Assembly (NCBI GenBank): GCA_030655315.1
Contig: JAURVT010000017.1
Span: 1 to 64,000 of the forward strand
Reading direction: 5' to 3'
Length of the DNA stretch: 64,000 bases
DNA from: Nocardioidaceae bacterium
GTDB lineage: Bacteria; Actinomycetota; Actinomycetes; Propionibacteriales; Nocardioidaceae
In this document: one piece after another, positions 1,478-16,650 of the stretch
Numbering within the stretch: the first letter of the stretch is position 1
Layout: every line of letters begins with the position of its first letter
The notes under the pieces: model-generated
Told to the model about the DNA's origin: nothing
Seen by the model: the letters and a program-made list of their open reading frames with translations, nothing else
Databases searched by the model: none
Made by a program: the position numbers and the translations under genes

Positions 1478-1502
1478 CTCGTTGTCTCCGTCCCTCGTCC
1501 TG

Positions 1503-3686
1503 TCAGTACCGGTCGAGGTCGCGCAGAGCCGCGACGACCTCGTCGGTGCGGGCGATCGCGGCTCGCTCGAGCACCTTGCTGATCGACGGCGAGGCCGTGG
1601 CCCCGTGGACGCGCAGCACGGGCGCGTCCAGGTGGTCGAACAGCCGGCGCTGGATCTCGTCGGCGAGCCAGCCGCCGTACGAGGTGCCGACGGCACCCTG
1701 CTCGACGATGAGCACCCGGTTGGTCTTCTCGACGCTCGCGGTGATGGTCTCCCAGTCCAGCGACGCCCGGTCCAGCCAGCGCAGGTCGATCAGGTCGGCG
1801 CTGACCTCGTCGACGATCCCGAGCGCCTCGGCGCAGTGGTTGACCATCGAGAGGTAGGAGATGACCGTGAGGTCGTCCCCGCTGCTGCGCAGCGCGGCCC
1901 GGCCCACCGGCAGGCAGAAGTCGAGGTCGTCGGTCGGGGCGCGGCCCGTGCTGGTGTAGAGGTCGACGTGCTCGAGCATGACGACGGGGTCGTCGCAGCG
2001 CAGCGCCGTGTTCATCAGGCCGACGTAGTCGTAGGGGCACGACGGGGCGACGACCCGGAGCCCGGGCGCGGTGGTCAGGACGCCGGCGGGGTCCATCGAG
2101 TGCTGCGAGCCGTACCCCGTGCCGGCGGCCAGCTTGGACCGCAGGACGAGGGGGACGGCGCTCTCGCCGCCGAACATGTGGCGCGCCTTGGCCACCTGGT
2201 TGAACAGCTGGTCGGCCGCGACCCACATGAAGTCGGCGTACATGAACTCGACCACGGGCCGCAGGCGCCCGTCGAGGGCCATCCCGCCGGCGGCGCCGAG
2301 GAAGGCGTTCTCGCTGATGGGCGTGCCGAGCACACGGTCGGGGAACTTCTCGAGCGGACGACGGGTGGCACCGTTGGTGCCGCCCTTGAGGCCGTCCACG
2401 TCCTCGCCGAGCACGACGATCCGCTCGTCGTCGGCCATCCGGGCCGCCGCGACCTCGCTGACGACGTCGATGAACCTGCGCTCGTCCAGCGCGCCGTCGA
2501 AGTCGTCGATCTCGACGTAGCGGGCACCCTCGAGCTCGCTCAGGTCACCGAGGACGCCGATGTCGACGAACCCCGGGTCAGGCCACTGGTCGGCCCGCAC
2601 GCGCCGCTGCCCGGGCTTGCCGCCGGGCTCGGGCTCGAACATGGTCTCGCCGAGCGCGCGCATGTGGTCGAGCACGGCCTTGCCCGACGCGGCGACCTGC
2701 TCCTCGGTGACGAGCCCGCGGCGCAGGCACTGGTCGACGAGCATGGCCAGCGGGTCGCGCTTGCGCCACTGCTGCTCCTCGTCCTTGCTGCGGTAGCCGA
2801 ACGCGCTGCCGGGGTAGGGGCCGTTCTGGTGGAAGAAGCGGTAGACCTGCGCCTCGATCAGCGTCGGGCCACCGCCGGAGCGCATGTGCTCCAGGGCCTC
2901 CTGCATGACGAGGTGGACCGCGAGGGGGTCCATGCCGTCCACGCGCCAGCTGCGGATGCCGAAGGCCTGGCCGCGGGCCGACAGGCGGGGCTCGGCGGTC
3001 ACCTTCTCGACCGGCGTCGACACCGCGTAGCCGTTGTTCTCGACGAAGAAGCAGACCGGGGCCTTCCAGGCCGAGGCCAGGTTCATCGACTCGAGGACCG
3101 AGCCGATGTTGATGGCCCCGTCGCCGAAGTAGGTGACGGTGACGGCGTCGTCCTGCGCGGCGCGGTCCTGGGCGTAGGCGAAGCCGACGGCCTGGGGCAC
3201 GCCGCCGCCCACGATCGCGTTCGTGCCCATGGCGCCGGCCTCGCGCCACTGCAGGTGCATGGAGCCGCCGCGCCCGCGGCAGTAGCCCTCGGCCAGGCCG
3301 CAGATCTCCGCGAGGGTGCGGCGCAGGACGAGGCGGACCTCGTCGGTGAGCTCGGGCAGCCCGCCGTCGACCGGCACCCCGACGTGGCCGAAGGCCTTCG
3401 CCAGGAACTGGTGGTGCCCGCGGTGGGAGCCGTTGACCATGTCGGTGTCGAGCAGGCCGATGATCGAGCCGACCGCCCCGCCCTCCTGGCCGATGCTCGA
3501 GTGGGCCGGGCCGTGCACCAGACCGTCGGCGGCCAGCTCGAGCACGTACTCCTCGAACACCCGGATCCACTGCGTCTGCGCCAGCATCCCGACCAACAGG
3601 TCCGGATCGGCCGCGTCCCAGTCAGACTCCGTCGCGTGGACGTGCGTCCAGTCCGCCGCGGGCTCGAGCTTCTGCCGTTCCACCAT
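1503..3686 (-). CDS. Fused thiamine-diphosphate dehydrogenase E1 alpha-beta subunit
   Basis: 727-aa single chain carrying both E1 subunits. The alpha half (about 1-370) has the TPP/Mg motif GDG...NN (GDGAINIGS through FFVENNGYA) and HRGHHQFLAKA and GRGGSMH segments. The beta half (from about 395) starts FIDVVSEVAAARMADDE and continues with ISENAFLGAAGGMALDG and FADFMWVAADQL-like segments. Most E1 enzymes of this class are alpha2beta2 with separate genes, so the fusion is notable though known in some bacteria. Decarboxylates a 2-oxoacid or cleaves acetoin and loads the acyl group on E2. It is the first gene of the minus-strand operon; the TGTTCA-N7-TGTACG operator lies 67-85 nt upstream. Confidence 0.88.
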   Translation of the reverse strand: MVERQKLEPAADWTHVHATESDWDAADPDLLVGMLAQTQWIRVFEEYVLELAADGLVHGPAHSSIGQEGGAVGSIIGLLDTDMVNGSHRGHHQFLAKAFGHVGVPVDGGLPELTDEVRLVLRRTLAEICGLAEGYCRGRGGSMHLQWREAGAMGTNAIVGGGVPQAVGFAYAQDRAAQDDAVTVTYFGDGAINIGSVLESMNLASAWKAPVCFFVENNGYAVSTPVEKVTAEPRLSARGQAFGIRSWRVDGMDPLAVHLVMQEALEHMRSGGGPTLIEAQVYRFFHQNGPYPGSAFGYRSKDEEQQWRKRDPLAMLVDQCLRRGLVTEEQVAASGKAVLDHMRALGETMFEPEPGGKPGQRRVRADQWPDPGFVDIGVLGDLSELEGARYVEIDDFDGALDERRFIDVVSEVAAARMADDERIVVLGEDVDGLKGGTNGATRRPLEKFPDRVLGTPISENAFLGAAGGMALDGRLRPVVEFMYADFMWVAADQLFNQVAKARHMFGGESAVPLVLRSKLAAGTGYGSQHSMDPAGVLTTAPGLRVVAPSCPYDYVGLMNTALRCDDPVVMLEHVDLYTSTGRAPTDDLDFCLPVGRAALRSSGDDLTVISYLSMVNHCAEALGIVDEVSADLIDLRWLDRASLDWETITASVEKTNRVLIVEQGAVGTSYGGWLADEIQRRLFDHLDAPVLRVHGATASPSISKVLERAAIARTDEVVAALRDLDRY

Positions 3687-3752
3687 GTGCGCTCACCACT
3701 CCATTGCATCCAATGACGACCGGGGTGGGCGATCTCGGCCCTCCAACCCGGG

Positions 3753-3771
3753 TGTTCAGTGAGACTGTACG
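3753..3771. promoter_or_regulatory. Operator of the catabolic regulon (copy 1)
   Basis: TGTTCA-N7-TGTACG, an imperfect inverted repeat between the divergent E1 and VOC genes. It shares half-site and spacing with sites at 5111, 5955 and 16527. A site here could control both directions. The binding protein is inferred to be the XRE-cupin or the GntR regulator encoded next door. Confidence 0.6.
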
Positions 3772-3830
3772 CACGGATCGGATACATTGCTAGCCCCCAG
3801 CGTGATCCGGCTCACCCCAGGAGCGACCCC

Positions 3831-4349
3831 ATGCCCATGCCCCTGTCCACCGCCCGAGGCGTCGACCACCTCGGCGTCACCGTGCCCGACCTCGACCAGG
3901 CCCGACGGTTCTTCGTCGACGTCCTCGGCTGCACCCCGCTGTACGTCCTCGGCCCCTTCGCCGACGCGGACGGCACCTGGATGCGCGACCACCTCGGTGT
4001 CGCGCCGGACACCGTCATGCGCCGGCTCCAGTTCTTCGAGCTCGGTGGCCAGGCGGTCTTCGAGGTGTTCGAGTACGAGGCCCGAGACGCCGCCGCCACT
4101 CCGCCGCTGAACAGCGACGTCGGCGGCCACCACGTGGCGATCTACGTCGACGACCTCGACCTCGCGGTCGAGGAGCTGCGGGCCCACGGGATCCGGGTGC
4201 TCGGCGAGCCGACCGCGAGCCAGGGGCCCAGCGCCGGCCAGCGGTGGGTCTACTTCCTCACCCCGTGGGGCCTGCAGATGGAGCTGGTGTCCTACCCCGA
4301 CGGAAAGGCCTTCCACCGCGATCGCACGGCGTTCGACCGTCCCGGGTGA
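3831..4349 (+). CDS. VOC-superfamily (glyoxalase fold) protein
   Basis: 172 aa with two beta-alpha-beta-beta-beta modules: GVDHLGVTVPDLDQARRFF at the N-terminus and HHVAIYVDDLDLAVEELRAHG in the second half, ending PWGLQMELVSYP. The metal-ligand pattern is that of the family: His in VDHLGV, Glu in AVFEVFE, His in GHHVA and Glu near the end (QMELV). VOC proteins include epimerases, lyases and ring-cleaving dioxygenases, and this one cannot be assigned. I start at the ATG at 3831 because AGGAG lies 7 nt upstream; the frame is open from 3759, but that would run across the operator. First plus-strand gene of the locus, followed 44 nt later by gntR. Confidence 0.8.
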   Translation: MPMPLSTARGVDHLGVTVPDLDQARRFFVDVLGCTPLYVLGPFADADGTWMRDHLGVAPDTVMRRLQFFELGGQAVFEVFEYEARDAAATPPLNSDVGGHHVAIYVDDLDLAVEELRAHGIRVLGEPTASQGPSAGQRWVYFLTPWGLQMELVSYPDGKAFHRDRTAFDRPG

Positions 4350-4393
4350 GCACCGGCGATAGCCTGCTCCCCCACCAGCACGGAGGGGGCGCC

Positions 4394-5065
4394 ATGGACC
4401 CGCTCGCCCGCACGGGCACCCGGTCGTCGGGCGTCGCGAGCCACCGCATCGCCGACCACCTGCGCGAGCTCATCCTGAGCGGCCAGATGGCCCCCGGGCA
4501 GCGGGTCCTGCAGGAGGAGCTCGCCGCGCAGTTCGAGACGAGCCGCATCCCCGTCCGCGAGGCGCTACGGATCCTGCAGGCCGCGGGCCTGGTCCGGCTG
4601 CGCTCGAGCAGCGGTGCGTGGGTGAGCGAGATGGACGAGCACGAGTGCCAGCTCGCCTACGAGATGCGCGAGCGCCTCGAGCCGCTGCTGCTCGCGCAGG
4701 GCTTCGACCGGCTGACCTCGCACGACGTGGACGAGCTGGCCTCGGTCCAGGCGCTGATCGAGCAGAACGACGACGTCGAGCAGTTCCTGGTGCTCGACCG
4801 TCGCCTGCACTGGATCACCTACCGGCACCACGACGCCGACGACCTCGCCGCGGTGGTGTCGCGCCTGTGGGACACCACCCAGCACTACCGCCGCGCCTTC
4901 ACCCGCCTCGCCGGCGAGCAGCGCCGGTGGATCATCTCGGCCGAGCACCACCTGCTGATCCAGGCGGTGCGCGACCGTGACCTCGCGGCGGCGCAGGACG
5001 TCCTCGGCCTGCACATCCGGCGCACGCGGATCGAGCTGTCGGCGCACCCCGAGGTGTTCGGCTAG
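4394..5065 (+). CDS. GntR-family (FadR/FCD type) regulator
   Basis: 223 aa. The N-terminal winged helix covers about 15-80 (HRIADHLRELILSG, then RIPVREALRILQAAGLV, the usual GntR recognition stretch). The C-terminal all-alpha FCD domain (about 90-215) contains the LAYEMRERLEPLLL helix and histidines of the kind that bind metal and ligand (HRR-like RRLHW, EHHLL). The ATG at 4394 has GGAGGGG 6 nt before it. Located inside the catabolic locus between the VOC and XRE-cupin genes, so it probably senses a pathway acid or sugar. Either this protein or the XRE-cupin may bind the repeated TGTWCA operator. Confidence 0.87.
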   Translation: MDPLARTGTRSSGVASHRIADHLRELILSGQMAPGQRVLQEELAAQFETSRIPVREALRILQAAGLVRLRSSSGAWVSEMDEHECQLAYEMRERLEPLLLAQGFDRLTSHDVDELASVQALIEQNDDVEQFLVLDRRLHWITYRHHDADDLAAVVSRLWDTTQHYRRAFTRLAGEQRRWIISAEHHLLIQAVRDRDLAAAQDVLGLHIRRTRIELSAHPEVFG

Positions 5066-5110
5066 GCCCGAGGTCGGGGCGACGCGGTCCGACGCTTCCC
5101 CCGGCCCGGT

Positions 5111-5129
5111 TGTACAGCCATAATGAACA
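5111..5129. promoter_or_regulatory. Operator of the catabolic regulon (copy 2)
   Basis: TGTACA-N7-TGAACA upstream of the XRE-cupin gene, about 70 bp before a TAGAAT -10 box at 5201-5206. Same half-site and spacer length as the other three copies, suggesting autoregulation of the XRE-cupin gene. Confidence 0.6.
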
Positions 5130-5254
5130 CGTGCACACGCCTCCTGTGGTCCCGCGACCCGATCGGCGCGGTGCGCCGCAGGCGTGCCCGCCGTCGGTCC
5201 TAGAATCCGGGTGCCAGGTCCGTCATGACTGAACGACCGCTCGCGGAGGTTGCA

Positions 5255-5947
5255 GTGATCGCAGAGATCGGGGAGCGACTCCGGGACGCCCGTCGCGAGC
5301 GCGGGATCACCCTGCGCTCGCTCGCCCAGGACCTCAAGGTGTCCCCGAGCCTGATCTCGCAGGTGGAGAACGGCAAGACCCAGCCGTCGGTCTCGACGCT
5401 GTACGCGATGGTGTCCCACCTCGGCATCTCGCTGGACGAGCTGCTCGGCGTAGGGGAGAGCTCGCCGGTCACCCCGTCGGCGCCGCCCGCACGGGAGGCG
5501 GACGCCTCGGGCGTGGTGCAGCGGGCCGGGACGGGACCGGTGCTCGAGATGGAGAACGGCGTGCACTGGGAGCGGCTCGCGGCCCACCCGGGCGGCGCCG
5601 TCGACCCCCTGCTCGTGACCTACGACCCCGGTGCGTGCAGCTCGGTCGAGGGCAAGATGATGCGGCACGCGGGTGTCGAGCACGCCTACCTCCTCGAGGG
5701 CGAGCTGACCGTGCAGGTCGACTTCGACACCGTCGTGCTGCACGCCGGCGACTCGCTGCAGTTCGACTCGGTGCGGCCGCACATGTACACCAACCACTCG
5801 AGCGCGAAGGTGCGCGGCATCTGGTTCGTCATCGGTCGCCGCGAGCAGGCGTCGGGCCCGCCCGCGCCGGAGTCGGCCGCGCCCGAGCGGATCACGTCCG
5901 CCGTCGACGTGCTCTCCCGGATGGATCGGCTCCGCCCGACGCAGTGA
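5255..5947 (+). CDS. XRE-family regulator with C-terminal cupin
   Basis: About 230 aa. HTH_3 domain at the N-terminus (IGERLRDARRERGITLRSLA, LKVSPSLISQVENGKTQPSV) and a cupin_2 domain at the C-terminus (VEHAYLLEGELTVQVDFD, HAGDSLQFDS, RPHMYTN) that should bind a small effector. Two starts are possible. GTG at 5255 has GGAGG 5 nt upstream and is preferred; ATG at 5225 adds 10 residues but has only AGG. A TAGAAT -10 lies at 5201. Regulators of this architecture often control local catabolic genes. Its own promoter carries the TGTWCA operator, so it is the leading candidate for the regulon's DNA-binding protein. Confidence 0.87.
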   Translation: MIAEIGERLRDARRERGITLRSLAQDLKVSPSLISQVENGKTQPSVSTLYAMVSHLGISLDELLGVGESSPVTPSAPPAREADASGVVQRAGTGPVLEMENGVHWERLAAHPGGAVDPLLVTYDPGACSSVEGKMMRHAGVEHAYLLEGELTVQVDFDTVVLHAGDSLQFDSVRPHMYTNHSSAKVRGIWFVIGRREQASGPPAPESAAPERITSAVDVLSRMDRLRPTQ

Positions 5948-5954
5948 CCCCTGG

Positions 5955-5973
5955 TGTTCACCTCTGTTGAACA
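5955..5973. promoter_or_regulatory. Operator of the catabolic regulon (copy 3)
   Basis: TGTTCA-N7-TGAACA, a perfect 6-bp-arm inverted repeat in the 69-nt gap before the PRISE-type reductase gene, 44 nt upstream of its GTG start. It matches the other three copies in half-site and spacer. Confidence 0.62.
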
Positions 5974-6016
5974 GTAGGCTCCGGGCGACCGTGCTCGCGA
6001 ACCGGAGGAGAACACC

Positions 6017-7096
6017 GTGACCGCATCAGGACCTGGCACCGCACTCGTCGTCGGCGCGACGGGGATCGTCGGGCGATCCGTGGCCGCCGAGCTCCTCGGG
6101 GCCGGTTGGGAGGTCCACGGGCTGTCGCGCAGCGGCGCCAGCCCGGTCCCCGGCACGATCGCCCACCAGGGCGACCTCACCGATCCCGAGAGCCTCGCCG
6201 CCGCGCTCGCCGACGTCGCCCCGAGCGCCGTCGCGTTCACGGCCTGGAGCCGTCAGGAGACCGAGGCCGAGAACATCGCCGTCAACGGCGCCGCCGTCCG
6301 CAACCTCCTCGAGGTCGTGGGCCGCGCCGGCTCGCTGGAGCACGTCGCGCTGATGACCGGCCTCAAGCACTACCTCGGCCCCTTCGAGGCCTACGCGACG
6401 GGCGCGATGCCCGACACGCCGTTCCACGAGTCCGAGCCCCGCCTGGACACGCCGAACTTCTACTACGCCCAGGAGGACGAGCTGTTCGCCGCGGCCGCGC
6501 GCCACGGGTTCACCTGGAGCGTGCACCGCGCGCACACCGTCTTCGGCTTCGCGACCGGCAACGCGATGAACATCGTCGCGACGATCTCGGCCTACGCCGC
6601 CATCTGCCGCGAGCTCGGGCGGCCGATGGTCTTCCCCGGCTCGCAGACGCAGTGGGACGGCCTGACCGACGTCACCGACTCCGACCTGCTGGCCGAGCAG
6701 ATCCACTGGGCCATCACCGACCCCGCCGCCGCCGACGAGCCGTTCAACATCGCCAACGGCGACGTCTTCCGGTGGCGGTGGTTCTGGCCCCACCTCGCCG
6801 AGCTGTTCGGGCTCGAGTGGGAGGGGTTCGACGGTGCGCCGCGTCCGCTCGAGGAGCAGATGGCCGGCGTCGGCGAGTCGGCCTGGAAGGCCGTCGTCGA
6901 CCGCTCGGGCCTGGCCGAGCCCGACATCACGAGGGTGGCGTCGTGGTGGCACACCGACGGCGACCTGGGCCGGCCGATCGAGGTCGTCACCGACATGAAC
7001 AAGAGCCGCAAGGCCGGGTTCCTGGGCTTCCGCGACAGCCGTGACAGCTTCGCGCACCACCTCGAGCGCTACCGCGAGGCGCGCGTCCTGCCGTGA
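6017..7096 (+). CDS. PRISE-type short-chain reductase (progesterone 5-beta-reductase/iridoid synthase-like)
   Basis: 359-aa extended SDR. NAD(P)-binding glycine motif VVGATGIVGRSVA lies at about 11-23. Two signatures of the plant PRISE family are present: LMTGLKHYLGPFE (about 113-125, catalytic Lys) and NFYYAQEDELF (about 149-159, catalytic Tyr), followed by WSVHRAHTVFGF. Known members reduce enone double bonds with NADPH. Bacterial homologues are mostly uncharacterised, so a role on an alpha,beta-unsaturated carbonyl intermediate is inference. GTG start with GGAGGAG 5 nt upstream. It converges on the dehydrogenase operon across a hairpin. Confidence 0.83.
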   Translation: MTASGPGTALVVGATGIVGRSVAAELLGAGWEVHGLSRSGASPVPGTIAHQGDLTDPESLAAALADVAPSAVAFTAWSRQETEAENIAVNGAAVRNLLEVVGRAGSLEHVALMTGLKHYLGPFEAYATGAMPDTPFHESEPRLDTPNFYYAQEDELFAAAARHGFTWSVHRAHTVFGFATGNAMNIVATISAYAAICRELGRPMVFPGSQTQWDGLTDVTDSDLLAEQIHWAITDPAAADEPFNIANGDVFRWRWFWPHLAELFGLEWEGFDGAPRPLEEQMAGVGESAWKAVVDRSGLAEPDITRVASWWHTDGDLGRPIEVVTDMNKSRKAGFLGFRDSRDSFAHHLERYREARVLP

Positions 7097-7109
7097 CCCG
7101 CACGACGTC

Positions 7110-7143
7110 GGCCCGCGACGCCCCTCGGGGGGCATCGCGGGCC
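7110..7143. terminator. Bidirectional hairpin between converging genes
   Basis: GGCCCGCGA (7110-7118) pairs perfectly with TCGCGGGCC (7135-7143), and the intervening CCCC/GGGG lengthens the stem. It sits between the reductase stop at 7096 and the end of the dehydrogenase operon at 7166, so it can serve both. Confidence 0.65.
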
Positions 7144-7165
7144 GTCGGCCGTGCTGTCGGTGCCG

Positions 7166-8185
7166 TCAGCCGCCCGGCACGAACGGCACGGCGGCCTCGA
7201 ACGAGATGTGCGCCTTGATGGTCCGGGCGGGGTCGTGCGCGGCGGCGAGGGCGGCCACGGCGTCGTCGAGGGCGAACTGCTGGGTGACGACCTCGGAGAG
7301 GTCGATGCCGCTCTGCGCCAGGAAGCGCAGGGTCTCGGGCCAGACGCCGGGCGAGCCGATCGACCCGGTGATGCGCAGCTCCTTGGACTGGATCAGGCCC
7401 AGGCTCGCCGACGCCTGCTGGCCCACGTCGATGCCGACGTAGGCGATCCGTCCCTGGAACGCGGCGACCTCGAGGGCCCGCGCCATCACCGCGGGACGGC
7501 CGCTCACCTCCACCACGACCTCGGCGCCGTGGCCCGACCCGATCGCCTCGAGCTGCGCGTCGAGGTCCTCAGGGGCGACGGCGTGGTGCGCCCCGAGCGA
7601 GAGCGCGGTCCGGCGCCGGTCCTCGGACGGCTCGACGGCGACGACGCGCGCCCCCATCGCCCGTGCCGCGGCGACGACCGCGAGCCCCACCGGTCCGGCA
7701 CCGAGGATCACCACGGTGTCGCTGGCGTCGACGCCACCGGCCCGGACCAGGGCGTAGTACGCGACGCTGAACGGCTCGACGAGCGCGCCCATCGTCCACG
7801 ACAGCCCGTCGGGCAGGCGGTGCAGCCACTCGGGCCGGGCGACGAAGTACTCGGCGGCGGCCCCGCTGATGGAGAAGCCGAAGTGGTCGGCCCCGATGAC
7901 GCACTCCCCCACCACGCGGTCGCCGACGGACCAGGAGGTGACGTCGGCGCCGACCGCGGCGACCTCGCCGGCCCACTCGTGCCCCGGCACCAGCGGGTAC
8001 GAGAACGGGATGATGTAGCGACCCTCGAGCAGGTCGATGTCGGAGTGGCAGACGCCCACCGAGCGGGCGGCCACCAGCACCTCGTCGGGCGCGACCTGCG
8101 GCACGGGCCGCTCGACCACCTCGGCCCGGTCCTGCTCGGTGTACTGCAGCGCCCTCATCGTCGGCCCCGTCGTGGCGGCGCTCAT
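7166..8185 (-). CDS. Medium-chain (zinc-type) dehydrogenase lacking the structural-zinc lobe
   Basis: 339 aa. GroES-like domain with catalytic-zinc residues VGVCHSD and PGHEWAGEV, then a Rossmann fold with the glycine motif LGAGPVGLAVVAAAR (about 175-190). Where related enzymes have the four-cysteine loop there is only ECVIGADHFGFSISG, so the structural zinc is absent. Last gene of the operon; its ATG overlaps the stop of the preceding gene by ATGA. A second ATG 25 nt further in (8160) is a weaker candidate. Substrate unknown; it probably oxidises a polyol or hydroxyketone taken up by the linked ABC transporter. Confidence 0.83.
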   Translation of the reverse strand: MSAATTGPTMRALQYTEQDRAEVVERPVPQVAPDEVLVAARSVGVCHSDIDLLEGRYIIPFSYPLVPGHEWAGEVAAVGADVTSWSVGDRVVGECVIGADHFGFSISGAAAEYFVARPEWLHRLPDGLSWTMGALVEPFSVAYYALVRAGGVDASDTVVILGAGPVGLAVVAAARAMGARVVAVEPSEDRRRTALSLGAHHAVAPEDLDAQLEAIGSGHGAEVVVEVSGRPAVMARALEVAAFQGRIAYVGIDVGQQASASLGLIQSKELRITGSIGSPGVWPETLRFLAQSGIDLSEVVTQQFALDDAVAALAAAHDPARTIKAHISFEAAVPFVPGG

Positions 8186-9240
8186 CGTGCCTCCACCAGG
8201 ACCTTGACCTGGTCGCCGGTGCGCGACAGCAGGGTCTCGAACCCGCCGGCGACCACGTCGTCCATGCCGATGCGCGCGGTGACGACCTTCTCGACCGGGT
8301 AGCGGCCGCTGCTGATCAGCTTGATGATCCGCGGCCAGTCGTAGACCGGGTAGCACCAGGTGCCGGCCAGCGTGACGTCGTGCTCGGACAGCACCATCGG
8401 GTCGATCGCGGCGGGCCTGGTGTGCAGGCCGGTCTGCGAGACGCGTCCGGCCGACCGGACCGCGCCCAGTGCCGACTGCAGGGCGGCCTCGTTGCCCGAG
8501 CACTCGATCACCGCGTCCACGCCGACGCCGTCGGTCCAGTCACGGGCCCACTGCGCGACGTCGACCTGCGTGGGGTCGACGACCTCGCCGACGTCGAGGC
8601 TCCGGGCCAGCGCCACCCGCACGGGGTTGACCTCCGAGACGACGACCGACGCCCCGGCGGCCGTCGCGTAGAGCGCGGCCAGTGCGCCGATGGGTCCGGC
8701 GCCGGTGACCAGCACCGAGTCACCGGGACGCACGCCCGCGACGTCGACCCCGTAGGCGGCCACGGCGGCCGGCTCGACGAGGGCGCCCTGGACGTCGTCG
8801 ACGGTCTCGGGGAGCACGCTCACCTGGTCGGCCCGGACCACCGCCAGCTCGGCGATGCCACCCCAGCGGGCGCTCAGGCCGACGCAGGCCATCGTCACGC
8901 AGAGGTGGTTGCGGCCACGGCGGCAGTGGAAGCAGCTGCCGCAGTAGAGCAGGGGCATCACCGACACCCGCTGCCCGACGCGGACGTGGGTCACATCGGC
9001 GCCGACCTCGACCACCTCGCCGGAGAACTCGTGACCGAGGATCTGCGGCAGCTGCGACCCGTTCAGGGCGTGCGGCGCCGACGGGATGACGATCGGCCCC
9101 ATCGCGTACTCGTGCAGGTCGGTGCCGCAGATGCCGCACCAGGCCGGCCTGAGCATCACCTCGCCAGGGCCTGGGCCGGTGGGGGCCTCGACGTCCTCGA
9201 CGCGGATGTCGTGCTCTCCGTGGAACACCGCTGCTCTCAT
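8182..9240 (-). CDS. 2,3-butanediol dehydrogenase-like zinc dehydrogenase
   Basis: 352 aa. AWCGICGTDLHEY, the long insert PIVIPSAPHALNG and ILGHEFSGEVVEVGADV follow the pattern of (R,R)-butanediol dehydrogenases closely. The structural-zinc loop CGSCFHCRRGRNHLC is intact. The Rossmann motif is VTGAGPIGALAALYA. Known family members interconvert butanediol and acetoin with NAD. The E1-E2 genes at the other end of the locus could cleave acetoin, so this gene supports a butanediol/acetoin or similar vicinal-diol route, although sugar-alcohol dehydrogenases share these motifs. ATGA overlaps couple it to both neighbours. Confidence 0.82.
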   Translation of the reverse strand: MRAAVFHGEHDIRVEDVEAPTGPGPGEVMLRPAWCGICGTDLHEYAMGPIVIPSAPHALNGSQLPQILGHEFSGEVVEVGADVTHVRVGQRVSVMPLLYCGSCFHCRRGRNHLCVTMACVGLSARWGGIAELAVVRADQVSVLPETVDDVQGALVEPAAVAAYGVDVAGVRPGDSVLVTGAGPIGALAALYATAAGASVVVSEVNPVRVALARSLDVGEVVDPTQVDVAQWARDWTDGVGVDAVIECSGNEAALQSALGAVRSAGRVSQTGLHTRPAAIDPMVLSEHDVTLAGTWCYPVYDWPRIIKLISSGRYPVEKVVTARIGMDDVVAGGFETLLSRTGDQVKVLVEAR

Positions 9241-10319
9241 GTGTCACTGCTCCTCGTGTCGATCTCGGGTTCCATGGTCGGGTCGAACAGGACCTTGCCG
9301 TCCAGCCCGCCGGAGGCCATCCGGTCGAGCTGACCGGCCAGGTCCGACAGCGGCCGCACGGAGTCCAGCAGCTCGGTGGCGAGCCCGGTCCGCGCCAGGA
9401 TCTCCATGGCGGGGGACAGGTCGTCGCCGCAGACGTGCGCGAGCGTCGTCTCGAGGGTGACCTCGCGCATCACCAGGGCGTGCAGGTCGATCTCCTGCGG
9501 CCCGGACGGGAGCCCGACCTGCAGGATCCGCCCGCCGGGCCGGACCATCGCCTGGGCGCGGCCCACCATGCCCAGGGCGCCGCTGGCCTCGATGACGACG
9601 TCGGCGCCACCGGGCCCCACAGCCTCGGCCACGGCGGCGTCGCCGTCGTCGCCCGCGGCGACCGTCGTGGTGGCGCCGGTGCGCGCAGCCCGCTCGAGCC
9701 GCCGACCGGCGAAGTCGACCACGACCACGTCGCAGTCGACGAGGTCGCGCAGGCCCGCCAGGACGAAGGTCCCGATGGCGCCGGCGCCGATCAGCACGAC
9801 CGTGTCGCCCGGCCGGACGCCGGCGCGACGCGCGGCGTGCAGGCCGACGGCCATCGGCTGGGCGAGTCCGGCGGCGTCCAGGCCGAGCCCGTCGGGGACG
9901 GGCCGCAGCGTCGACATGGGGACGGAGACCAGCTCGGCCATGCCGCCGTGCGTGTTGAGGCCGAGCGTGTAGTAGCGGCGGCACAGGTTGGTCCGGCCCT
10001 CACGGCACCGGTCGCAGGTGCCGCAGCTGACGCCGGCGCCGCTCGCGACCAGCCGGCCCGTCTCCCAGCCCGAGCCGGGGACGGTCTCGACGACCTCGCC
10101 GACGAGCTCGTGCCCGGGGATCATCGGACCGTGGTGGCCCGTGACCGGGTGGGGGGTGCGGACGGGGAAGGTCCGCGGTCCCTTGGTCCACTCCCCCAGG
10201 TCGGTGCCGCACATCCCGCTGCGCAGGACCCGGACGACGACCTCGCCCGCGGCGGGCGTGGGGTCGGGGACGTGCTCGAGACGGACGTCGCCGGCGTCGT
10301 GGAAGACCGCGGCGCGCAT
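9237..10319 (-). CDS. Zinc-dependent medium-chain dehydrogenase
   Basis: 360 aa. Catalytic-zinc residues are SGMCGTDLGEW and IPGHELVGEVVE, the structural-zinc loop is CGTCDRCREGRTNLC, and the nucleotide motif is LIGAGAIGTFVLAGL. It has the butanediol/threonine dehydrogenase layout and an N-terminus, MRAAVFHDAGDVRLE, very like the next gene's, so the two are probably paralogues from tandem duplication. The start overlaps the M24 stop by one base (TGATG). Three dehydrogenases in one operon imply successive oxidations of one substrate or oxidation of stereoisomers; the substrate itself is unknown. Confidence 0.82.
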   Translation of the reverse strand: MRAAVFHDAGDVRLEHVPDPTPAAGEVVVRVLRSGMCGTDLGEWTKGPRTFPVRTPHPVTGHHGPMIPGHELVGEVVETVPGSGWETGRLVASGAGVSCGTCDRCREGRTNLCRRYYTLGLNTHGGMAELVSVPMSTLRPVPDGLGLDAAGLAQPMAVGLHAARRAGVRPGDTVVLIGAGAIGTFVLAGLRDLVDCDVVVVDFAGRRLERAARTGATTTVAAGDDGDAAVAEAVGPGGADVVIEASGALGMVGRAQAMVRPGGRILQVGLPSGPQEIDLHALVMREVTLETTLAHVCGDDLSPAMEILARTGLATELLDSVRPLSDLAGQLDRMASGGLDGKVLFDPTMEPEIDTRSSDT

Positions 10320-11710
10320 CAGGGCGTCGCTCCGTCCTCGCCACGACCGGCGGGCGTGTTGAGGTGCGACTGCGAGTCGCGCACGAGGGGCAGGCCGCCC
10401 CCGACCGACAGGTAGCGCGGCCCGGCGACGAGCAGCTCCTCGGCGGGGAACTTGGTGACGACCTCGCAGCCGTCGGCCGTGACGACGACCTCCTCCTCGA
10501 TCCGCGCGGCACCGATGCCGTCGGCCGAGGGCCAGTAGGTCTCGAGGGCGAAGAACATGCCCTCCTCGAGGGTCTCGGGGTGCTCGAGCGACACGAGCCG
10601 GGAGAAGATCGGCTTCTCCCAGATCGAGAGCCCGACGCCGTGGCCGTACTGCAGGGCGAAGGCCGCCTCCTCGTCGGGGAACCCGAACTCGTGCGCCTCG
10701 GGCCAGACGCTCACGACGTCGGCGGTGGTCGCGCCGGGACGCACCAGGGCGATGGCGCGGTCCATGTACTCCCGGGCCCGCTTGTAGGCGTCGTTCTGGG
10801 CCTGCGACGCCGACCCGACGGCGAACGTCCGGTAGTAGCAGGTCCGGTACCCGTTGTAGCTGTGCAGGATGTCGAAGAACGCCGGGTCGCCGGGTCGGAT
10901 GATCCGGTCGGAGTACACGTGCGGGTGCGGCGAGCAGCGCTCGCCGGAGATCGCGTTGACGCCCTCGACGTACTCCGAGCCCAGGTCGTAGAGCGTCTTG
11001 GAGACCAGCCCGACCGTCTCGTTCTCCCGCACGCCGGGACGCAGGAACTCGTACAGCGTCGTGTAGGCGGCGTCGACCATCGAGGCGGCCTGGGTGAGCA
11101 GGGAGATCTCGTCGCGGGTCTTGATGGTGCGGGCGCGCAGGAAGACCTGCTGGCCGTCGACGACGGTGACCCCGGCCTGCTGGAGCGCGAACAGGATGGG
11201 CAGCTCGATCACGTCGACGCCGAGCGGCTGGTCGAGCAGGCCGAACTTCTCGAGCTCGCGCTTGATCTTGCGCGCCACCTCCTCGGCGACCCCGGCCGAG
11301 GGGTTGAACGCGCCGCGGAGCGTCGAGATGCCGGCACGCGCCCCGGACTCGGCGCGAGGACGGACGGCGCCGTGGTGCGGCGCGTGCGGGTCGGCGTCCA
11401 TCTCGGCGGTGGTCTGCGTCAGCCACGGGTTGTAGAGCTGGTGGTGCCGGGCGGCGGAGCCGAAGTCCCAGACGATCGGGTCGCTGTTCCGGGTCAGCAG
11501 GCTGAACCGGATCATCTTGTCCATCGCCCACGTGCCGATGTGGGTGGACGACATGTAGCGGATGTTGGAGAAGTCGAACGCCAGCAGCGCGCCGACGTCG
11601 GAGAGCTCGAGCTCGGCCTTGAGGCGGGCGAGCCGCTCCTCGCGCAGGCGGTCGAAGGAGATGCGGTTCTCCCAGTCCACGGCGTTGGTCCCGTAGGTGG
11701 CAGTGCTCAT
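10319..11710 (-). CDS. M24-family (aminopeptidase P/creatinase/DMSP-lyase fold) protein with a missing metal ligand
   Basis: 463 aa: a creatinase-type N-terminal domain (about 20-190, GALLAFDFSNIRYMS) and a pita-bread C-terminal domain. Of the five usual metal ligands I see Asp in AFFDILHSY, His in YGHGVGLSIW, Glu in FFALETYW and Glu in RIEEEVVV. The second Asp, expected 12 residues after the first, is Tyr (GYRTCYYRTF). Loss of a ligand points away from a plain dinuclear peptidase and towards a creatinase-like or lyase-like chemistry. Its place between an ABC importer and dehydrogenases suggests it releases an oxidisable product from the imported compound. That is inference. Confidence 0.8.
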   Translation of the reverse strand: MSTATYGTNAVDWENRISFDRLREERLARLKAELELSDVGALLAFDFSNIRYMSSTHIGTWAMDKMIRFSLLTRNSDPIVWDFGSAARHHQLYNPWLTQTTAEMDADPHAPHHGAVRPRAESGARAGISTLRGAFNPSAGVAEEVARKIKRELEKFGLLDQPLGVDVIELPILFALQQAGVTVVDGQQVFLRARTIKTRDEISLLTQAASMVDAAYTTLYEFLRPGVRENETVGLVSKTLYDLGSEYVEGVNAISGERCSPHPHVYSDRIIRPGDPAFFDILHSYNGYRTCYYRTFAVGSASQAQNDAYKRAREYMDRAIALVRPGATTADVVSVWPEAHEFGFPDEEAAFALQYGHGVGLSIWEKPIFSRLVSLEHPETLEEGMFFALETYWPSADGIGAARIEEEVVVTADGCEVVTKFPAEELLVAGPRYLSVGGGLPLVRDSQSHLNTPAGRGEDGATP

Positions 11711-11789
11711 CGGTGGAGCCTTTCTGGTCGGACAGGGAGGATCGGGTGCCGGACGCGGGGCGAGGCGGCGCGTCGGACGGGTGAGGGGG

Positions 11790-14288
11790 TCAGACGCCGG
11801 CCAGGCGCCGGCGTCGCAGGCCCAGCAGCGTGTAGACCACGGCCGCGACGAGGATCAGCAGGCCCTGGAAGTAGTACTGCGACGTCGACCCGAGGCCGAG
11901 GAACGTCGTCGCGTTCAGCAGCTGCTGGAGCAGGAGCGCACCGGCCAGCGTGCCGACGAAGGTGCCGCGGCCGCCCGTCAGCGCGGTGCCGCCGAGGACG
12001 ACGGCGGTGACGCTGGTGAGGGTGAACGCCGATCCCTGGCTGGGGTCGCCGATGCCGTACTGGCCCATCAGCAGCAGGGCGCCGAACAGGCAGCAGGTGC
12101 TGGCCGCGACGTAGGCGAGGACGATGGTCCGGTTCACCGGGATGCCGACCCGGCGGGCGGCGTCCTCGTCCGAGCCCGCGCCGCGCAGGACCAGGCCCCA
12201 GCGCCGGCGCCGCAGCCCCAGCTCGAGCACCACCACGAGGGCGACCAGGAGGAGGAACGCGACGGGCAGCGGGCCCACGGTCGAGTTGATGGCGGTCTGG
12301 AAGGTGATGCTGATGTAGCCGTCCTGGGTGGGGCGGAGCAGGAACGCGAAGCCGCCGAGCGCGATGTAGAGCGTCAGGGTGGCGGCGATCGGCGTGAAGT
12401 GGCCGAATCGGATGAGCAGGCCGTTCACCGTCCCCACCCCCACCGCGACCGCGAGCATCAGCACGAGCCCGGTCACCACCCGCACCGCCGAGCTGCCGTC
12501 GTTGACGAAGAACGACGCGACCACGACGAGGAACCCGGCCAGCGGGCCGACCGACAGGTCGATGCCGCCGGTGAGCAGGGCGAAGTTCTGCCCGAGCGCG
12601 ATGAACCCGACCGCGGTGGCGCCGAGGAGCAGGTTGGAGATGTTGAACGCCGAGAGGTAGCGGTCGTTGCCCGGTGCGATGAGGACGGTCAGCAGCACCA
12701 TCACCGCGACGAGCAGCAGGGTGGGGGTGTACTCGCTGTCGAGCCAGCGTCCGAGGCGCGACGTACGGTTCCGCTCGGCGTCGGCGACGACCTCGGCGGT
12801 CGACGTCACGGCTGCCTGGATGATGCGGGTCTCGGTGACCTCGTCGCCGTGCAGGTCGGCGACCACCTGGCCGCGGGACATCACCACGACCCGGTCGCAC
12901 AGGCCCTCGAGCTCCTTGGCGTCCGACGACGCGATGACGACCGGCACGCCGCGCTCGGACGTCTCGCGCAGGATCGTGTAGATCTCGGCTCGGGCGCCGA
13001 CGTCGACGCCCTGGGTGGGCTCGTCGGCGACGAGCAGCGGCGGCTCGGAGAGCAGCGCCCGGGCGAGGACGACCTTCTGCTGGTTGCCGCCCGACAGCGA
13101 CGACACCGGCGCCTCGGCCGACGCGGACTTGACCGAGAGCGAGTCCATCGAGCGGTGCACGGCGTCGAGCTCGCGACGCCGGCTCGTCAGCCCGCTGCGA
13201 CGGAAGAAGGTCAGCGCCAGCAGCGCGGCGTTCTCGCGGACCGACATCTTCATCATCAGGCCCTCGGACTGGCGGTCCGCGGGCACGTAGGCGGCGTCGG
13301 CGCGCAGCGTCGCCTGCGTCAGGCCCGTTCCCGCCGCCTCGACGGTGCCCGTGAAGCGGTCGAGGCCGGCGAGGGCCCGGAGCAGCTCGGTCTGGCCGTT
13401 GCCGACCACGCCGGCGACCCCCAGGATCTCGCCACGACGCACCTCGGCGTCCACGCCCTCGAAGCCGTGACCGCTCAGCCCGGTGACGCGCAGGCCCACC
13501 GGCGCGTCGTCGCGCACGTCCGGCTTCGGCGGGAAGGTGGAGTCGAGGCGGCGCCCGATGATCAGGCCGAGCAGGTCCTCGTCGGTGATCTCGTCGACGG
13601 TGCTGGTGCCGCGGACCTCGCCGTCGCGCAGCACGGTGACGCGGTGGGCCAGCTGGCGCACCTCGGCCATGCGGTGGGTGATGTAGACGACCGCCGTGCC
13701 GCCGTCGACCGCCGACCGGACCAGCGCGAACAGCCGGTCCACGGCGTCGGCGCCCAGCGGCGCCGTGGGCTCGTCGAGGATGAGCAGCGTCGGGTCCAGC
13801 GCGAACGCCTTGGCCACCTCGAGCAGGTGCTTCTCGGCGAGGGTGAGCGTGTCGACCCGGTCGCCCAGGTCGATGTCGAGACCCACGCGGTCGACGATCG
13901 CGCGCGCTGCCTCGGTGCCGCCGCCGAGCGGCAGCACCGAGGACGGCAGCGCCACCCGGAGGTTCTCCAGCACCGTGAGGTCGGGCAGGACCGCCGGGTG
14001 CTGGTGGACGATCGCGATCCCCATGTCGGTGACCGACCGCGGGGTGAGCGAGTCGACCTCGGTGCCGCCGACGGCGATGGTGCCCTCGTCGGGCTGGGTG
14101 GCGCCGGTGGCGACCCCCATCAGCGTCGACTTGCCGGCACCGTTCTCACCCAGCACCGCGTGCACCTCGCCGGGACGGATGTCGAGGTCCACCTGCGACA
14201 GGGCGGTGACGCCGCCGTACCGCTTGGTGATCCCGGACAGCCGCATGACCGTCGGCGCACCGGTCAGGGTGCTCGCAGCGTGGCTCAC
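11790..14288 (-). CDS. Ribose-type (CUT2) ABC transporter: fused duplicated ATPase and permease
   Basis: 832 aa. The first half (about 1-500) is an RbsA-like double ATPase. Domain 1 has Walker A GENGAGKST and Walker B LLILDEPTAPLG. Domain 2 has a degenerate Walker A, VVGNGQTEL, but an intact signature LSGGNQQKV and VADEPTQGVD. From about 515 it becomes an RbsC-like permease (YLSAFNISNLLLGATAVGF, LLTGGIDLSVGPLAGF, many hydrophobic helices). These are usually separate genes, so this is a fusion. With the second permease and binding lipoprotein it forms a complete importer, probably for a small polyol or sugar-like solute. GTG start at 14288. Confidence 0.87.
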   Translation of the reverse strand: MSHAASTLTGAPTVMRLSGITKRYGGVTALSQVDLDIRPGEVHAVLGENGAGKSTLMGVATGATQPDEGTIAVGGTEVDSLTPRSVTDMGIAIVHQHPAVLPDLTVLENLRVALPSSVLPLGGGTEAARAIVDRVGLDIDLGDRVDTLTLAEKHLLEVAKAFALDPTLLILDEPTAPLGADAVDRLFALVRSAVDGGTAVVYITHRMAEVRQLAHRVTVLRDGEVRGTSTVDEITDEDLLGLIIGRRLDSTFPPKPDVRDDAPVGLRVTGLSGHGFEGVDAEVRRGEILGVAGVVGNGQTELLRALAGLDRFTGTVEAAGTGLTQATLRADAAYVPADRQSEGLMMKMSVRENAALLALTFFRRSGLTSRRRELDAVHRSMDSLSVKSASAEAPVSSLSGGNQQKVVLARALLSEPPLLVADEPTQGVDVGARAEIYTILRETSERGVPVVIASSDAKELEGLCDRVVVMSRGQVVADLHGDEVTETRIIQAAVTSTAEVVADAERNRTSRLGRWLDSEYTPTLLLVAVMVLLTVLIAPGNDRYLSAFNISNLLLGATAVGFIALGQNFALLTGGIDLSVGPLAGFLVVVASFFVNDGSSAVRVVTGLVLMLAVAVGVGTVNGLLIRFGHFTPIAATLTLYIALGGFAFLLRPTQDGYISITFQTAINSTVGPLPVAFLLLVALVVVLELGLRRRRWGLVLRGAGSDEDAARRVGIPVNRTIVLAYVAASTCCLFGALLLMGQYGIGDPSQGSAFTLTSVTAVVLGGTALTGGRGTFVGTLAGALLLQQLLNATTFLGLGSTSQYYFQGLLILVAAVVYTLLGLRRRRLAGV

Positions 14289-14338
14289 TGTTGGTCCTCG
14301 TCCTCGTCCTCGTCGTCGTCTCTGTGGCCGGCCGGGCG

Positions 14339-15436
14339 TCAGTCGCCGAGCTTGGCCTGCTCCTCGCCGGGCATCTCGGCGGAGAGGTAGGTGTCACCGG
14401 GCAGGTCCTTGCGGCACTGGACCGGGTTGGGCTCGCCGCTCACGGAGTCCTCGAAGACCGGACCCTTGAAGGCGTCGGCGGACGGGACCTTGCCGCCGGT
14501 CGCCTTGGCCACGGCGTACTGCACCGCGAGGCGGACGTTGTCGTTGCCCGTGGTGACGGTGGTCATCTTGAACGGCGACGTCTTCTGGCTGTCCTCCCAG
14601 AAGCAGCTGAGCGAGTTGCCGTCGGTCGTGGCCAGGGCCGGGATGTCGCGGCCGCTCTTGGCGAACAGGGGCAGCGCGCTGACGAGCGTCGGGCCGAAGT
14701 CGGAGACGATGACGTCGATCTGGGGGTACTTGGCGATGTCGGCCGTGAGCAGCTGCTGGGTGAGCGCCGGGTCCCAGTTGGTCGGCTGGAAGGGCTTCTG
14801 CCCGATGAACTCGTAGGAGTCCGGGAGGTTCTTGCGCATCGCCTCGTACTCCTCGATGCTCTGGCTGTTGCCGGCCGGGCCGCCGAGGAAGAGCACGTTG
14901 CCGCCGTCGGGCACGTTCTTCTTGATCCAGGTGGCCCAGTTGACGCCGTCGTTGGCGAAGTCGTCGCCGATCCACTTGTCGTAGTTGACGCCCGCCTTGC
15001 CGCCGGGGTCGACGCGGTAGGGCACCGTCACGACGCCGGCCTTGTAGGACGCGGTGAGCGCCGGGAGGACCGCCTTGCCCGCGTCGGGGAAGACCACGAG
15101 CGCGTCGACGCCGGAGGACACCAGGCCCTTGATGTCGGAGATCGACTTCTGGACGTCTCCCTGCCCGTCGGCGTACTTGAAGCCGGTGACGCTGGGGCAC
15201 TTGGCCGCCTCGGCCTTGCCCGACGCGGTCGTGACCAGGCGCCAGCTGTTGCCGCCGTAGCCGTCGACGAGCCCGAGCTCGATCTTCTTGGTGCCGCACC
15301 ACTCGGGTGCGCCGTCGACGCGGGTGGCGGGGCCCTCGGCGCCGTTCGACGTGCTGCCGGTGCTGCCGCAGGCCGCCAGGGCGACGGCGAGCGAGGTGAT
15401 CGCCGCACCGGTCACAAGGTTTCGGGTCAGGCTCAT
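14339..15436 (-). CDS. Sugar-type ABC transporter substrate-binding lipoprotein
   Basis: 365 aa. A lipoprotein signal peptide ends in the lipobox LAAC (Cys about 23) and is followed by a Gly/Ser/Thr linker, then a periplasmic-binding-protein type I fold (DVQKSISDIKGLVSSGVDAL, VFPDAGKAVLPAL). It captures the ligand outside the membrane and delivers it to the two permease domains. It lies between the two permease genes in the operon, 50 nt from each. The ligand cannot be read from sequence. Type I binding proteins of CUT2 systems carry pentoses, polyols, autoinducer-like diols and nucleosides. Confidence 0.86.
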   Translation of the reverse strand: MSLTRNLVTGAAITSLAVALAACGSTGSTSNGAEGPATRVDGAPEWCGTKKIELGLVDGYGGNSWRLVTTASGKAEAAKCPSVTGFKYADGQGDVQKSISDIKGLVSSGVDALVVFPDAGKAVLPALTASYKAGVVTVPYRVDPGGKAGVNYDKWIGDDFANDGVNWATWIKKNVPDGGNVLFLGGPAGNSQSIEEYEAMRKNLPDSYEFIGQKPFQPTNWDPALTQQLLTADIAKYPQIDVIVSDFGPTLVSALPLFAKSGRDIPALATTDGNSLSCFWEDSQKTSPFKMTTVTTGNDNVRLAVQYAVAKATGGKVPSADAFKGPVFEDSVSGEPNPVQCRKDLPGDTYLSAEMPGEEQAKLGD

Positions 15437-15485
15437 CTGGTCCTCCGGGTGCTGGGGGTGGGGTCGTGACGGGTGGTGCGGATGG

Positions 15486-16493
15486 TCAGGTGGGTGCGCC
15501 GGACGGCGCCGCCCGGTCGGGGGTGAGCCGGCGGACCAGCGCGGTCCAGCGGATCGTGTAGAGCGAGACGCCGACGGCGAGCGCGGCGGCCTGGACGAGC
15601 GGCGAGATGGCCGGCGAGACGCCGAGCACGGACACCAGCTGCACGAGCTGCTGCAGGAAGACCGCCGCGACGACCGTCGGCAGCGGGAACCCGCGACCGC
15701 CGAGCAGCGACGTCCCGCCCAGCACGACCACGGCGATCGACGGCAGCAGGTACCGGTCGCCGGAGTAGGCGGTGGGCTGAGAGGTGATGCCTGCGATCAG
15801 GATCCCGGCCAGGCAGTAGAGCAGCTGGGCCCAGACGTAGGTGAGGCAGTGGTGGCGCCGCTCGCGGAGCCCCGCGGTGCGGGCCGCCAAGCGGTTCGAG
15901 CCGATGGCCTCGAAGCGGCGGCCCGCCACCGTCTTCTTGACCAGCAGCGTCACGACGCCGAGGGTCACGAGCGCGATCACCACCGCGTGGGGCACGCCCG
16001 CCGTGGTGCCACCGGCGACGTCGGCCAGGAGGTTCGTCGTGATCCTCGGGCGCCCTCCGGAGATCTCCAGGTTGACGCCGTAGAGGAGGGCGTTCGTGCC
16101 GAGCGTCGCGATGATGGCGTTCAGGCCCAGCAGACCGATGAGCACGCCGTTCAGCAACCCGGCGACCACGGCGAACACGAGCGCGATGCCGATCGCCGGC
16201 ACCAGGCGGCCGCTGTCGCCGTCGGGCACGTGGGTGACGACGATGAGCGCCAGCGAGATGCCGCCCGCGACGGACAGGTCGATCCCGCCCTGCTGGACGA
16301 CGAGCATCTGCCCCAGGCCCGCGATGGCGAGCACCGCTGCCACCGGCAGCATGCCGGAGAGCGAGGTGCCCGACACGCTCGCGGGATCGAGCGCGGCGCT
16401 GAGGACGAACAGGGCGACGGTCGCGACCCCGATCGTCACCAGCCCCCGCGACACGGTCACCCGCCCGCCGGACCTGTTCGTCTGCACCGCCAC
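15486..16493 (-). CDS. Ribose-type ABC transporter permease
   Basis: About 335 aa, strongly hydrophobic, BPD_transp_2 family. LVVQQGGIDLSVAGGISLAL is the conserved loop, and VVLGGTSLLGGRGFPLPTV follows near the C-terminus. It pairs with the permease half of the ATPase fusion as a heterodimer. I prefer the GTG at 16493, which has AGGAGA 7 nt upstream. An ATG at 16517 is in frame but sits right against the operator and has only AGGTG touching it. First gene of the seven-gene minus-strand operon ending at 7166. Confidence 0.85.
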   Translation of the reverse strand: MAVQTNRSGGRVTVSRGLVTIGVATVALFVLSAALDPASVSGTSLSGMLPVAAVLAIAGLGQMLVVQQGGIDLSVAGGISLALIVVTHVPDGDSGRLVPAIGIALVFAVVAGLLNGVLIGLLGLNAIIATLGTNALLYGVNLEISGGRPRITTNLLADVAGGTTAGVPHAVVIALVTLGVVTLLVKKTVAGRRFEAIGSNRLAARTAGLRERRHHCLTYVWAQLLYCLAGILIAGITSQPTAYSGDRYLLPSIAVVVLGGTSLLGGRGFPLPTVVAAVFLQQLVQLVSVLGVSPAISPLVQAAALAVGVSLYTIRWTALVRRLTPDRAAPSGAPT

Positions 16494-16523
16494 GTCGTTC
16501 TCTCCTGTGATCACCATCACCTG

Positions 16524-16548
16524 CTTTGTACAGCGTGACTGTACAAAG
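16524..16548. promoter_or_regulatory. Operator of the catabolic regulon (copy 4, perfect palindrome)
   Basis: CTTTGTACAG and CTGTACAAAG, perfectly inverted 10-bp arms around a 5-bp centre; the core is TGTACA-N7-TGTACA. It lies 31 nt upstream of the GTG start of the transporter operon, where a repressor would block the promoter. It is the best copy of the motif seen at 3753, 5111 and 5955. Confidence 0.75.
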
Positions 16549-16650
16549 GTTCGCTCTGGATGCACAAGAGGACGGGGGATGGTTTGTGGCGCCCCGCCGG
16601 CTCAGCCCGGCGGACCGCGCCGGTCGACGTCCGCCTCCTATCGTTCTCCC

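Follow-up and report, generated by a model that had tools for sequence, protein, structure and literature searches.

Which regulator binds a palindrome repeated in front of four gene units is the question raised by a locus of Nocardioidaceae bacterium (assembly GCA_030655315.1). The DNA analyzed, here called the window, is a stretch of 64,000 nucleotides, positions 1 to 64,000 of contig JAURVT010000017.1. An earlier note on this DNA had described four copies of the dyad TGTWCA-N7-TGWACA and had named two local proteins, an XRE-cupin regulator and a GntR regulator, as candidate binders. We conclude that the four palindromes very probably serve as operators for the XRE-cupin protein encoded in the locus. 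This protein is predicted to keep the four units repressed until a metabolite of the pathway binds its cupin domain, and the GntR protein likely acts through a box of its own at the divergent E1/VOC promoter. That box, ATTGnATCCAAT, is a second predicted operator at that promoter and was missed by the earlier note.

The four sites lie at 3753, 5111, 5955, and 16527 and share a half-site and a 7-bp spacer, as had been described. The predicted XRE-type operators, to which no strand is assigned, occupy 3753-3771 (TGTTCAGTGAGACTGTACG; one mismatch; the E1/VOC divergent promoter, where the site is lineage specific), 5111-5129 (TGTACAGCCATAATGAACA; no mismatches; upstream of the XRE-cupin gene), 5955-5973 (TGTTCACCTCTGTTGAACA; no mismatches; upstream of the SDR gene), and 16527-16545 (no mismatches; upstream of the ABC permease gene). 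The last is the core of a perfect palindrome at 16524-16548 with 10-bp arms, CTTTGTACAG-N5-CTGTACAAAG, again in agreement with the earlier note. Moreover, the sites do precede the E1-E2/VOC, XRE-cupin, reductase, and ABC-dehydrogenase units: from the end of the site to the start codon inferred by homology there are 33 bp for the ABC permease, 43 bp for SDR, 66 bp for E1, and 95 bp for XRE, and 59 bp separate the site at 3753 from the ATG of VOC at 3831, as counted on the sequence.

Chance is a poor account of these matches. When the 64-kb window was shuffled, matches with at most two mismatches averaged 0.42, reached a maximum of 3, and never numbered 4, and exact matches averaged 0.00 versus 3 observed. 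In the organism's own genome (4,176,123 bases in 57 contigs), five places matched with at most one mismatch, namely the four sites and one place outside the locus (contig C12, 13186-13204), and the same pattern read backward matched one place. The C12 place falls within a 395-amino-acid frame on the minus strand and thus is probably a chance match. A scan of the whole genome, which the earlier note had proposed, therefore gave no flood of random matches. At up to two mismatches, the genome held 27 places and the backward control gave 30; the 22 places gained at this threshold all lay on other contigs. Thus, looser matches carry no signal, and an extension of the regulon across the genome at two mismatches was rejected because there was no excess over the control. 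Because the sites are nearly unique and no signal appears at two mismatches, the regulon seems to be confined to the locus, as far as the dyad motif shows.

The motif also recurs at orthologous loci, upstream of the XRE, M24, and SDR genes of relatives and of close homologues of the ABC operon. Scanning for homologues of the XRE-cupin protein yielded 44 loci (757 kb), 26 of which contain an M24 homologue (73 to 85% identical in 25 of them) and many of which also carry a sugar-type ABC importer and dehydrogenases. Across these loci, the 7-bp spacer gave 5 exact matches and 25 with at most one mismatch, versus 0 exact and 0 to 8 for other spacers between 0 and 15. The half-site was distinctive as well: across 360 permutations, among which the true half-site was counted, the averages were 0.06 exact matches and 1.83 with at most one mismatch, versus 5 and 25 observed, and the sole comparable permutations were two nearly identical to it. 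A matrix made from 37 core sites found 163 sites of at least 11 bits versus 8 in reversed sequence, albeit in the loci on which it was built, and its consensus with inner bases, TGTTCAgt-N3-acTGAACA, is a 19-bp symmetric palindrome. De novo ranking of exact dyads in these loci was dominated by GC-rich repeats.

Where the dyad occurs in relatives was counted in 250-bp upstream regions at two mismatches or fewer, with shuffled means for comparison; genes whose homology match started after residue 60 or that had too little upstream sequence were left out. The dyad was found upstream of 30 of 44 XRE genes (shuffled, 0.75) and 7 of 15 in a separate class search (0.00), of 15 of 34 M24 genes (0.35), and of all 5 SDR genes present in the 44-locus set (0.10). 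Together with the position of the 5111 site in front of the XRE gene, the frequency upstream of XRE supports a local regulon with likely autoregulation, as the earlier note had held. Sites of at least 12 bits lay at a median of 51 bp from the start of M24 (30/54), 52 bp from SDR (12/17), and 93 bp from XRE (49/79), in a tally in which overlapping stretches of a single genome were in some cases counted repeatedly.

Could the GntR protein bind the dyads and govern the regulon instead? Its gene (4394-5065, plus strand) sits within the locus between two of the dyads, and the protein contains a GntR helix-turn-helix domain (PF00392) and an FCD domain (PF07729), both above cut-offs. The dyad, however, was absent from all 20 usable GntR upstream regions of the 44 loci and from E1 upstream regions, whether XRE anchored (0/20; shuffled, 0.30) or GntR anchored (0/19; shuffled, 0.20), the latter counted in 19 of 20 loci (L059 to L078), with L079 and L080 outside the count. 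What those E1 regions have is ATTGnATCCAAT, which emerged as a conserved pair of boxes from an alignment of 21 E1/VOC divergent regions. At two mismatches or fewer, it was present in all 20 XRE-anchored E1 regions from which it was derived, in 18 of the 19 held-out GntR-anchored regions (shuffled, 0.65), and in 43 of the 44 distinct E1 regions whose stretch includes a GntR gene. It was found upstream of no XRE (0/44 and 0/15), M24 (0/34), SDR (0/5), or ABC (0/21) gene. XRE-type sites, moreover, adjoin XRE genes where no GntR gene was found: beside XRE-M24 pairs in short stretches (L081 to L084, L087, and L088), in 20 kb of L131, and on a Rhodococcus plasmid stretch with no GntR listed, in which a one-mismatch dyad lies between divergent VOC and XRE genes. 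Absences in the XRE and GntR class searches are weak, as at most seven candidates were scored per genome. Because the two motifs separate by upstream region, the most likely pairing is of the dyad with the XRE-cupin protein and of ATTGnATCCAAT with the GntR protein, the gene for which follows VOC; the co-occurrence likely makes ATTGnATCCAAT the box of the GntR/FCD protein. The GntR protein as binder of the dyads was accordingly rejected and is highly improbable, and of the two candidates in the earlier note, only the XRE-cupin protein, whose homologues the dyad follows, is supported.

Several observations weigh against assignment of the dyads to a conserved XRE-cupin regulon. Only 2 of 21 ABC permease genes with at least 35% identity had the dyad upstream (shuffled, 0.20), and among homologues of at least 55% identity, the window included, a site scoring 12 bits or more lay within 300 bp in 7 of 10. 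The permease of L117, which is preceded by sites at 1667 and 1733, was left out of the counts. Fourteen of the 44 XRE upstream regions lacked the dyad at two mismatches or fewer, and 8 of the 30 that had it were one shared Microbacterium sequence, leaving 22 of 35 without that genus; those Microbacterium loci contained no site of at least 12 bits. When loci were grouped by label, 17 of 26 labels had at least one dyad-bearing locus; the 26 merge Microbacterium sp. 18062 with Microbacterium, and an alternative count of 27 keeps it apart. Moreover, the loci are interrelated, with overlap between some stretches, and the matrix was used to score loci from which it had been built. Finally, a scan for sigma-70-like promoters near the sites gave none in both stretches, so promoter overlap was judged from start codons only.

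The XRE-cupin protein (5225-5947, plus strand), the likely binder of the four dyads, has the two domains of an XRE-cupin local repressor. An N-terminal HTH_3 domain (PF01381) and a C-terminal cupin (PF07883), both above cut-offs, are joined in one protein, the predicted structure of which is helical at the N terminus and beta at the C terminus (mean predicted local distance difference test score [pLDDT], 78.5; predicted template modeling score, 0.52). When the model was compared to the PDB with Foldseek, the top match was 1y9q, an HTH_3 regulator (E value, 2.7e-13), with a template modeling score of just 0.33 over the whole chain. In the recognition-helix region, residues S40, S42, L43, S45 to E48, G50 to T52, and P54 to V56 were unchanged in an alignment of 22 homologues, an invariance in line with a constant operator. 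Pairs of sites of at least 11 bits lying within 25 bp of each other were spaced 20 to 23 bp apart in all 10 cases (L010, L011, L023, L027, L033, L039, L052, L054, and L089), which suggests cooperative binding of two dimers. The window has one weak partner only, a possible site at 16548-16566 (no strand) that lies 21 bp from 16527, scores 9.6 bits, and could be due to chance.

How the XRE-cupin protein would act may be read from where its operators lie. A dimer would occupy the four dyads upstream of the four units, and at 5111 it would regulate its own gene. Bound protein would block RNA polymerase, as the operators end 33 to 95 bp before the starts, and repression would be lifted when a pathway intermediate binds the cupin domain. 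At E1/VOC, the GntR protein at its own box would be joined by the XRE-cupin protein at 3753; with a GntR box and an XRE operator in one promoter, expression of E1/VOC would need both repressors to be released. In two relatives (L117 and L119), an operator directly 3' of XRE stops 15 and 14 bp, respectively, short of the next ATG. The placement of operators near starts fits repression by promoter blocking. Alternatively, the XRE-cupin protein might bind the dyads and activate, or mix activation and repression. Lying 95 and 66 bp ahead of their start codons, the XRE and E1 sites would permit activation from upstream, and PMC12724383 cites a work whose title calls a further XRE-cupin regulator, NceR, an activator of ompA. 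However, gaps of 33 and 43 bp between site and start in the window, and of 14 to 15 bp in L117 and L119, leave little space for a downstream promoter, and the XRE-cupin regulators studied in P. aeruginosa are all described as inhibitors (PMC7901475). Activation, in whole or in part, thus seems unlikely, and repression by the XRE-cupin protein is the reading we retain.

Repression of this sort has precedents. Trouillon et al. 2021 (PMC7901475) describe P. aeruginosa XRE-cupin proteins as repressors that block promoters through palindromic operators adjoining their own genes, and the Pseudomonas consensus varies between members. Like the local repressors PsdR, PauR, and ErfA treated there, the window protein combines HTH_3 with a cupin and has palindromic operators in its own neighborhood, few sites, and metabolic targets. 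It differs in being actinobacterial with its own consensus, in sharing one promoter with a GntR-type box, and in having four local sites, whereas the Pseudomonas repressors mostly have one or two targets, PauR excepted. DbuR of Pseudomonas putida is likewise an XRE-cupin protein, with a 20-bp imperfect palindrome over a catabolic promoter that it blocks and an effector that was not found, but it differs in operator sequence (AATTCTCATATATTAGAATT) and in controlling a single operon (PMC12724383). PuuR of Escherichia coli is 27% identical to the window protein across the helix-turn-helix and cupin domains, and the E. coli puuA-puuD intergenic region contains a single copy of the half-site TGAACA. 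The PuuR consensus is AAAATATAATGAACA, not an N7 dyad, a form not confirmed in the literature searched. PuuR itself was rejected as the identity of the window protein (67.1 bits versus an NCBIfam equivalog cut-off of 211), and no putrescine genes, which neighbor PuuR in E. coli, were among the family matches listed for the locus genes. The GntR protein resembles FadR/FCD-type regulators in its PF00392 and PF07729 domains and in the short inverted-repeat box that its own divergent operon carries; its best NCBIfam match was phnR_burk, at 78 bits versus a cut-off of 271.5. The part of PMC9951944 available held no operator data. In sum, the regulon is well supported and of a known kind, most likely that of an XRE-cupin local repressor, with one lineage-specific twist.

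The twist is the E1/VOC promoter, where the window carries both motifs. The E1-side GntR-type box ATTGCATCCAAT (3703-3714, plus strand) is the sole exact match of the box in the organism's own genome, and the VOC-side box AATGTATCCGAT (3777-3788, minus strand; two mismatches) is separated from the XRE-type operator at 3753-3771 by 5 bp. Removal of duplicates left 45 distinct regions upstream of E1. A GntR gene lay in the stretch of 44 of them and the GntR box in 43; one had the dyad at two mismatches or fewer, and only the window had both. The sole region in which no GntR gene was found, from a Paenarthrobacter plasmid (L054), had no box and a weak XRE-type site (three mismatches, 13.5 bits). 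Within the same family, no XRE-type site was present in the E1/VOC regions of L117, L119, L120, L121, L123, and L136 or upstream of E1 in L124. As the site is confined to the window among these relatives, the XRE-cupin protein seems to have been added to the control of E1-E2/VOC in this lineage. The same rarity, at 1 of 45 regions, would also fit a chance near-match outside the regulon, such that only three units are controlled, and 3753 is the one site of the four with a mismatch. Yet its score of 24.1 bits is on a par with those of the exact sites at 5955 and 16527, its inner bases match GT..AC, and outside the four sites an equal match occurs at just one place in 4.18 Mb. We therefore consider chance a rather doubtful explanation of 3753 and treat it as a probable fourth operator.

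The genes under this predicted control fall into four units, one long operon among them. The E2 and E1 genes (113-3686, minus strand) encode, by family matches, an E2 acyltransferase with lipoyl and E3-binding domains (113-1435) and a fused E1 alpha/beta 2-oxoacid-dehydrogenase-like protein (1503-3686). Divergent from them, at 3831-5065 on the plus strand, are a VOC family protein with a glyoxalase fold (3831-4349) and the GntR/FCD regulator, followed by the XRE-cupin gene and, at 6017-7096 on the same strand, an SDR/PRISE-like reductase. The long minus-strand unit runs from 16493 to 7166, and family matches identify its first gene as an ABC permease (15486-16493), followed by a Peripla_BP_4 substrate-binding protein (14339-15436), a sugar-type ABC importer ATPase fused to a permease (11790-14288), an M24-family protein (10319-11710), and three zinc-type alcohol dehydrogenases (third, 9237-10319; second, 8182-9240; first, 7166-8185). 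From these families, the locus looks like one for uptake of a sugar-like compound, then oxidation steps, and then an E1-E2 step.

The M24 protein was one lead on the substrate. It is highly conserved, being 75 to 90% identical to 14 aligned homologues, and has an invariant cysteine, C291, in the motif GYRTCYYRT. M24 peptidases usually have their second metal-binding aspartate at that position. With cysteine in place of the expected aspartate, the protein is probably not a peptidase. Its predicted structure was poor (mean pLDDT, 55.8). Assignment as the dimethylsulfoniopropionate lyase DddP was rejected at 110 bits versus a cut-off of 600, and matches to ectoine hydrolase or peptidase were below cut-off only. 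On a Phaeobacter plasmid (L056), a 54%-identical M24 protein has E1 alpha, E1 beta, E2, and E3 encoded individually beside it, along with a sugar ABC importer, in a stretch with no XRE-type site of at least 14 bits. Two Paenarthrobacter plasmids (L054 and L057) carry M24 and RidA genes with a cupin or helix-turn-helix regulator homologous to XRE-cupin, one of them near a predicted sulR gene. Sulfonamide breakdown, at which the sulR neighbor hinted, was dropped as a substrate; the literature searched contained neither "Xaa-Pro" nor "dihydrolipoyl dehydrogenase."

Within the same family, 47 of 341 genomes had an M24 match at an E value of at most 1e-100, and 20 stretches were hand-picked from the match lists. 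L117 and L119 have homologues of the full set of 13 genes spanning E2 to the permease, and L118, L120, L128, and L130 have parts of it. A site of at least 11 bits and at most two mismatches was present in 15 of the 17 M24-bearing stretches (L117 to L132 and L136; not L125 or L127) and in none of the three with an SDR homologue only (L133 to L135). One of those three, L135 (G000:C26:101298-102353), is a second SDR homologue in the organism's own genome, 64% identical, outside such a locus and with no XRE-type site. In L117, the gene after XRE (13303-14502), 15 bp behind an operator with no mismatches, encodes EboE (NCBIfam, 395 bits; cut-off, 250) and is followed by a ketopantoate-reductase-like gene (14504-15547); the window has neither gene between XRE and SDR.

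What the regulon means for these bacteria may be stated at several strengths. From sequence alone, both neighboring regulators can be given a likely operator, and TGTTCAgt-N3-acTGAACA offers a search pattern for further genes of the pathway. Tentatively, and with slightly less than even confidence, we propose that the XRE-cupin regulon marks an undescribed catabolic pathway, widespread in Actinobacteria, around a nonpeptidase M24 protein, and that a formerly separate, GntR-controlled E1-E2/VOC module was wired into it by the gain of one operator 5 bp from a GntR box, which would create a two-repressor AND gate. Ultimately, should the 3753 site prove functional, it would clearly illustrate how the gain of a single operator can join a second catabolic module to a regulon.

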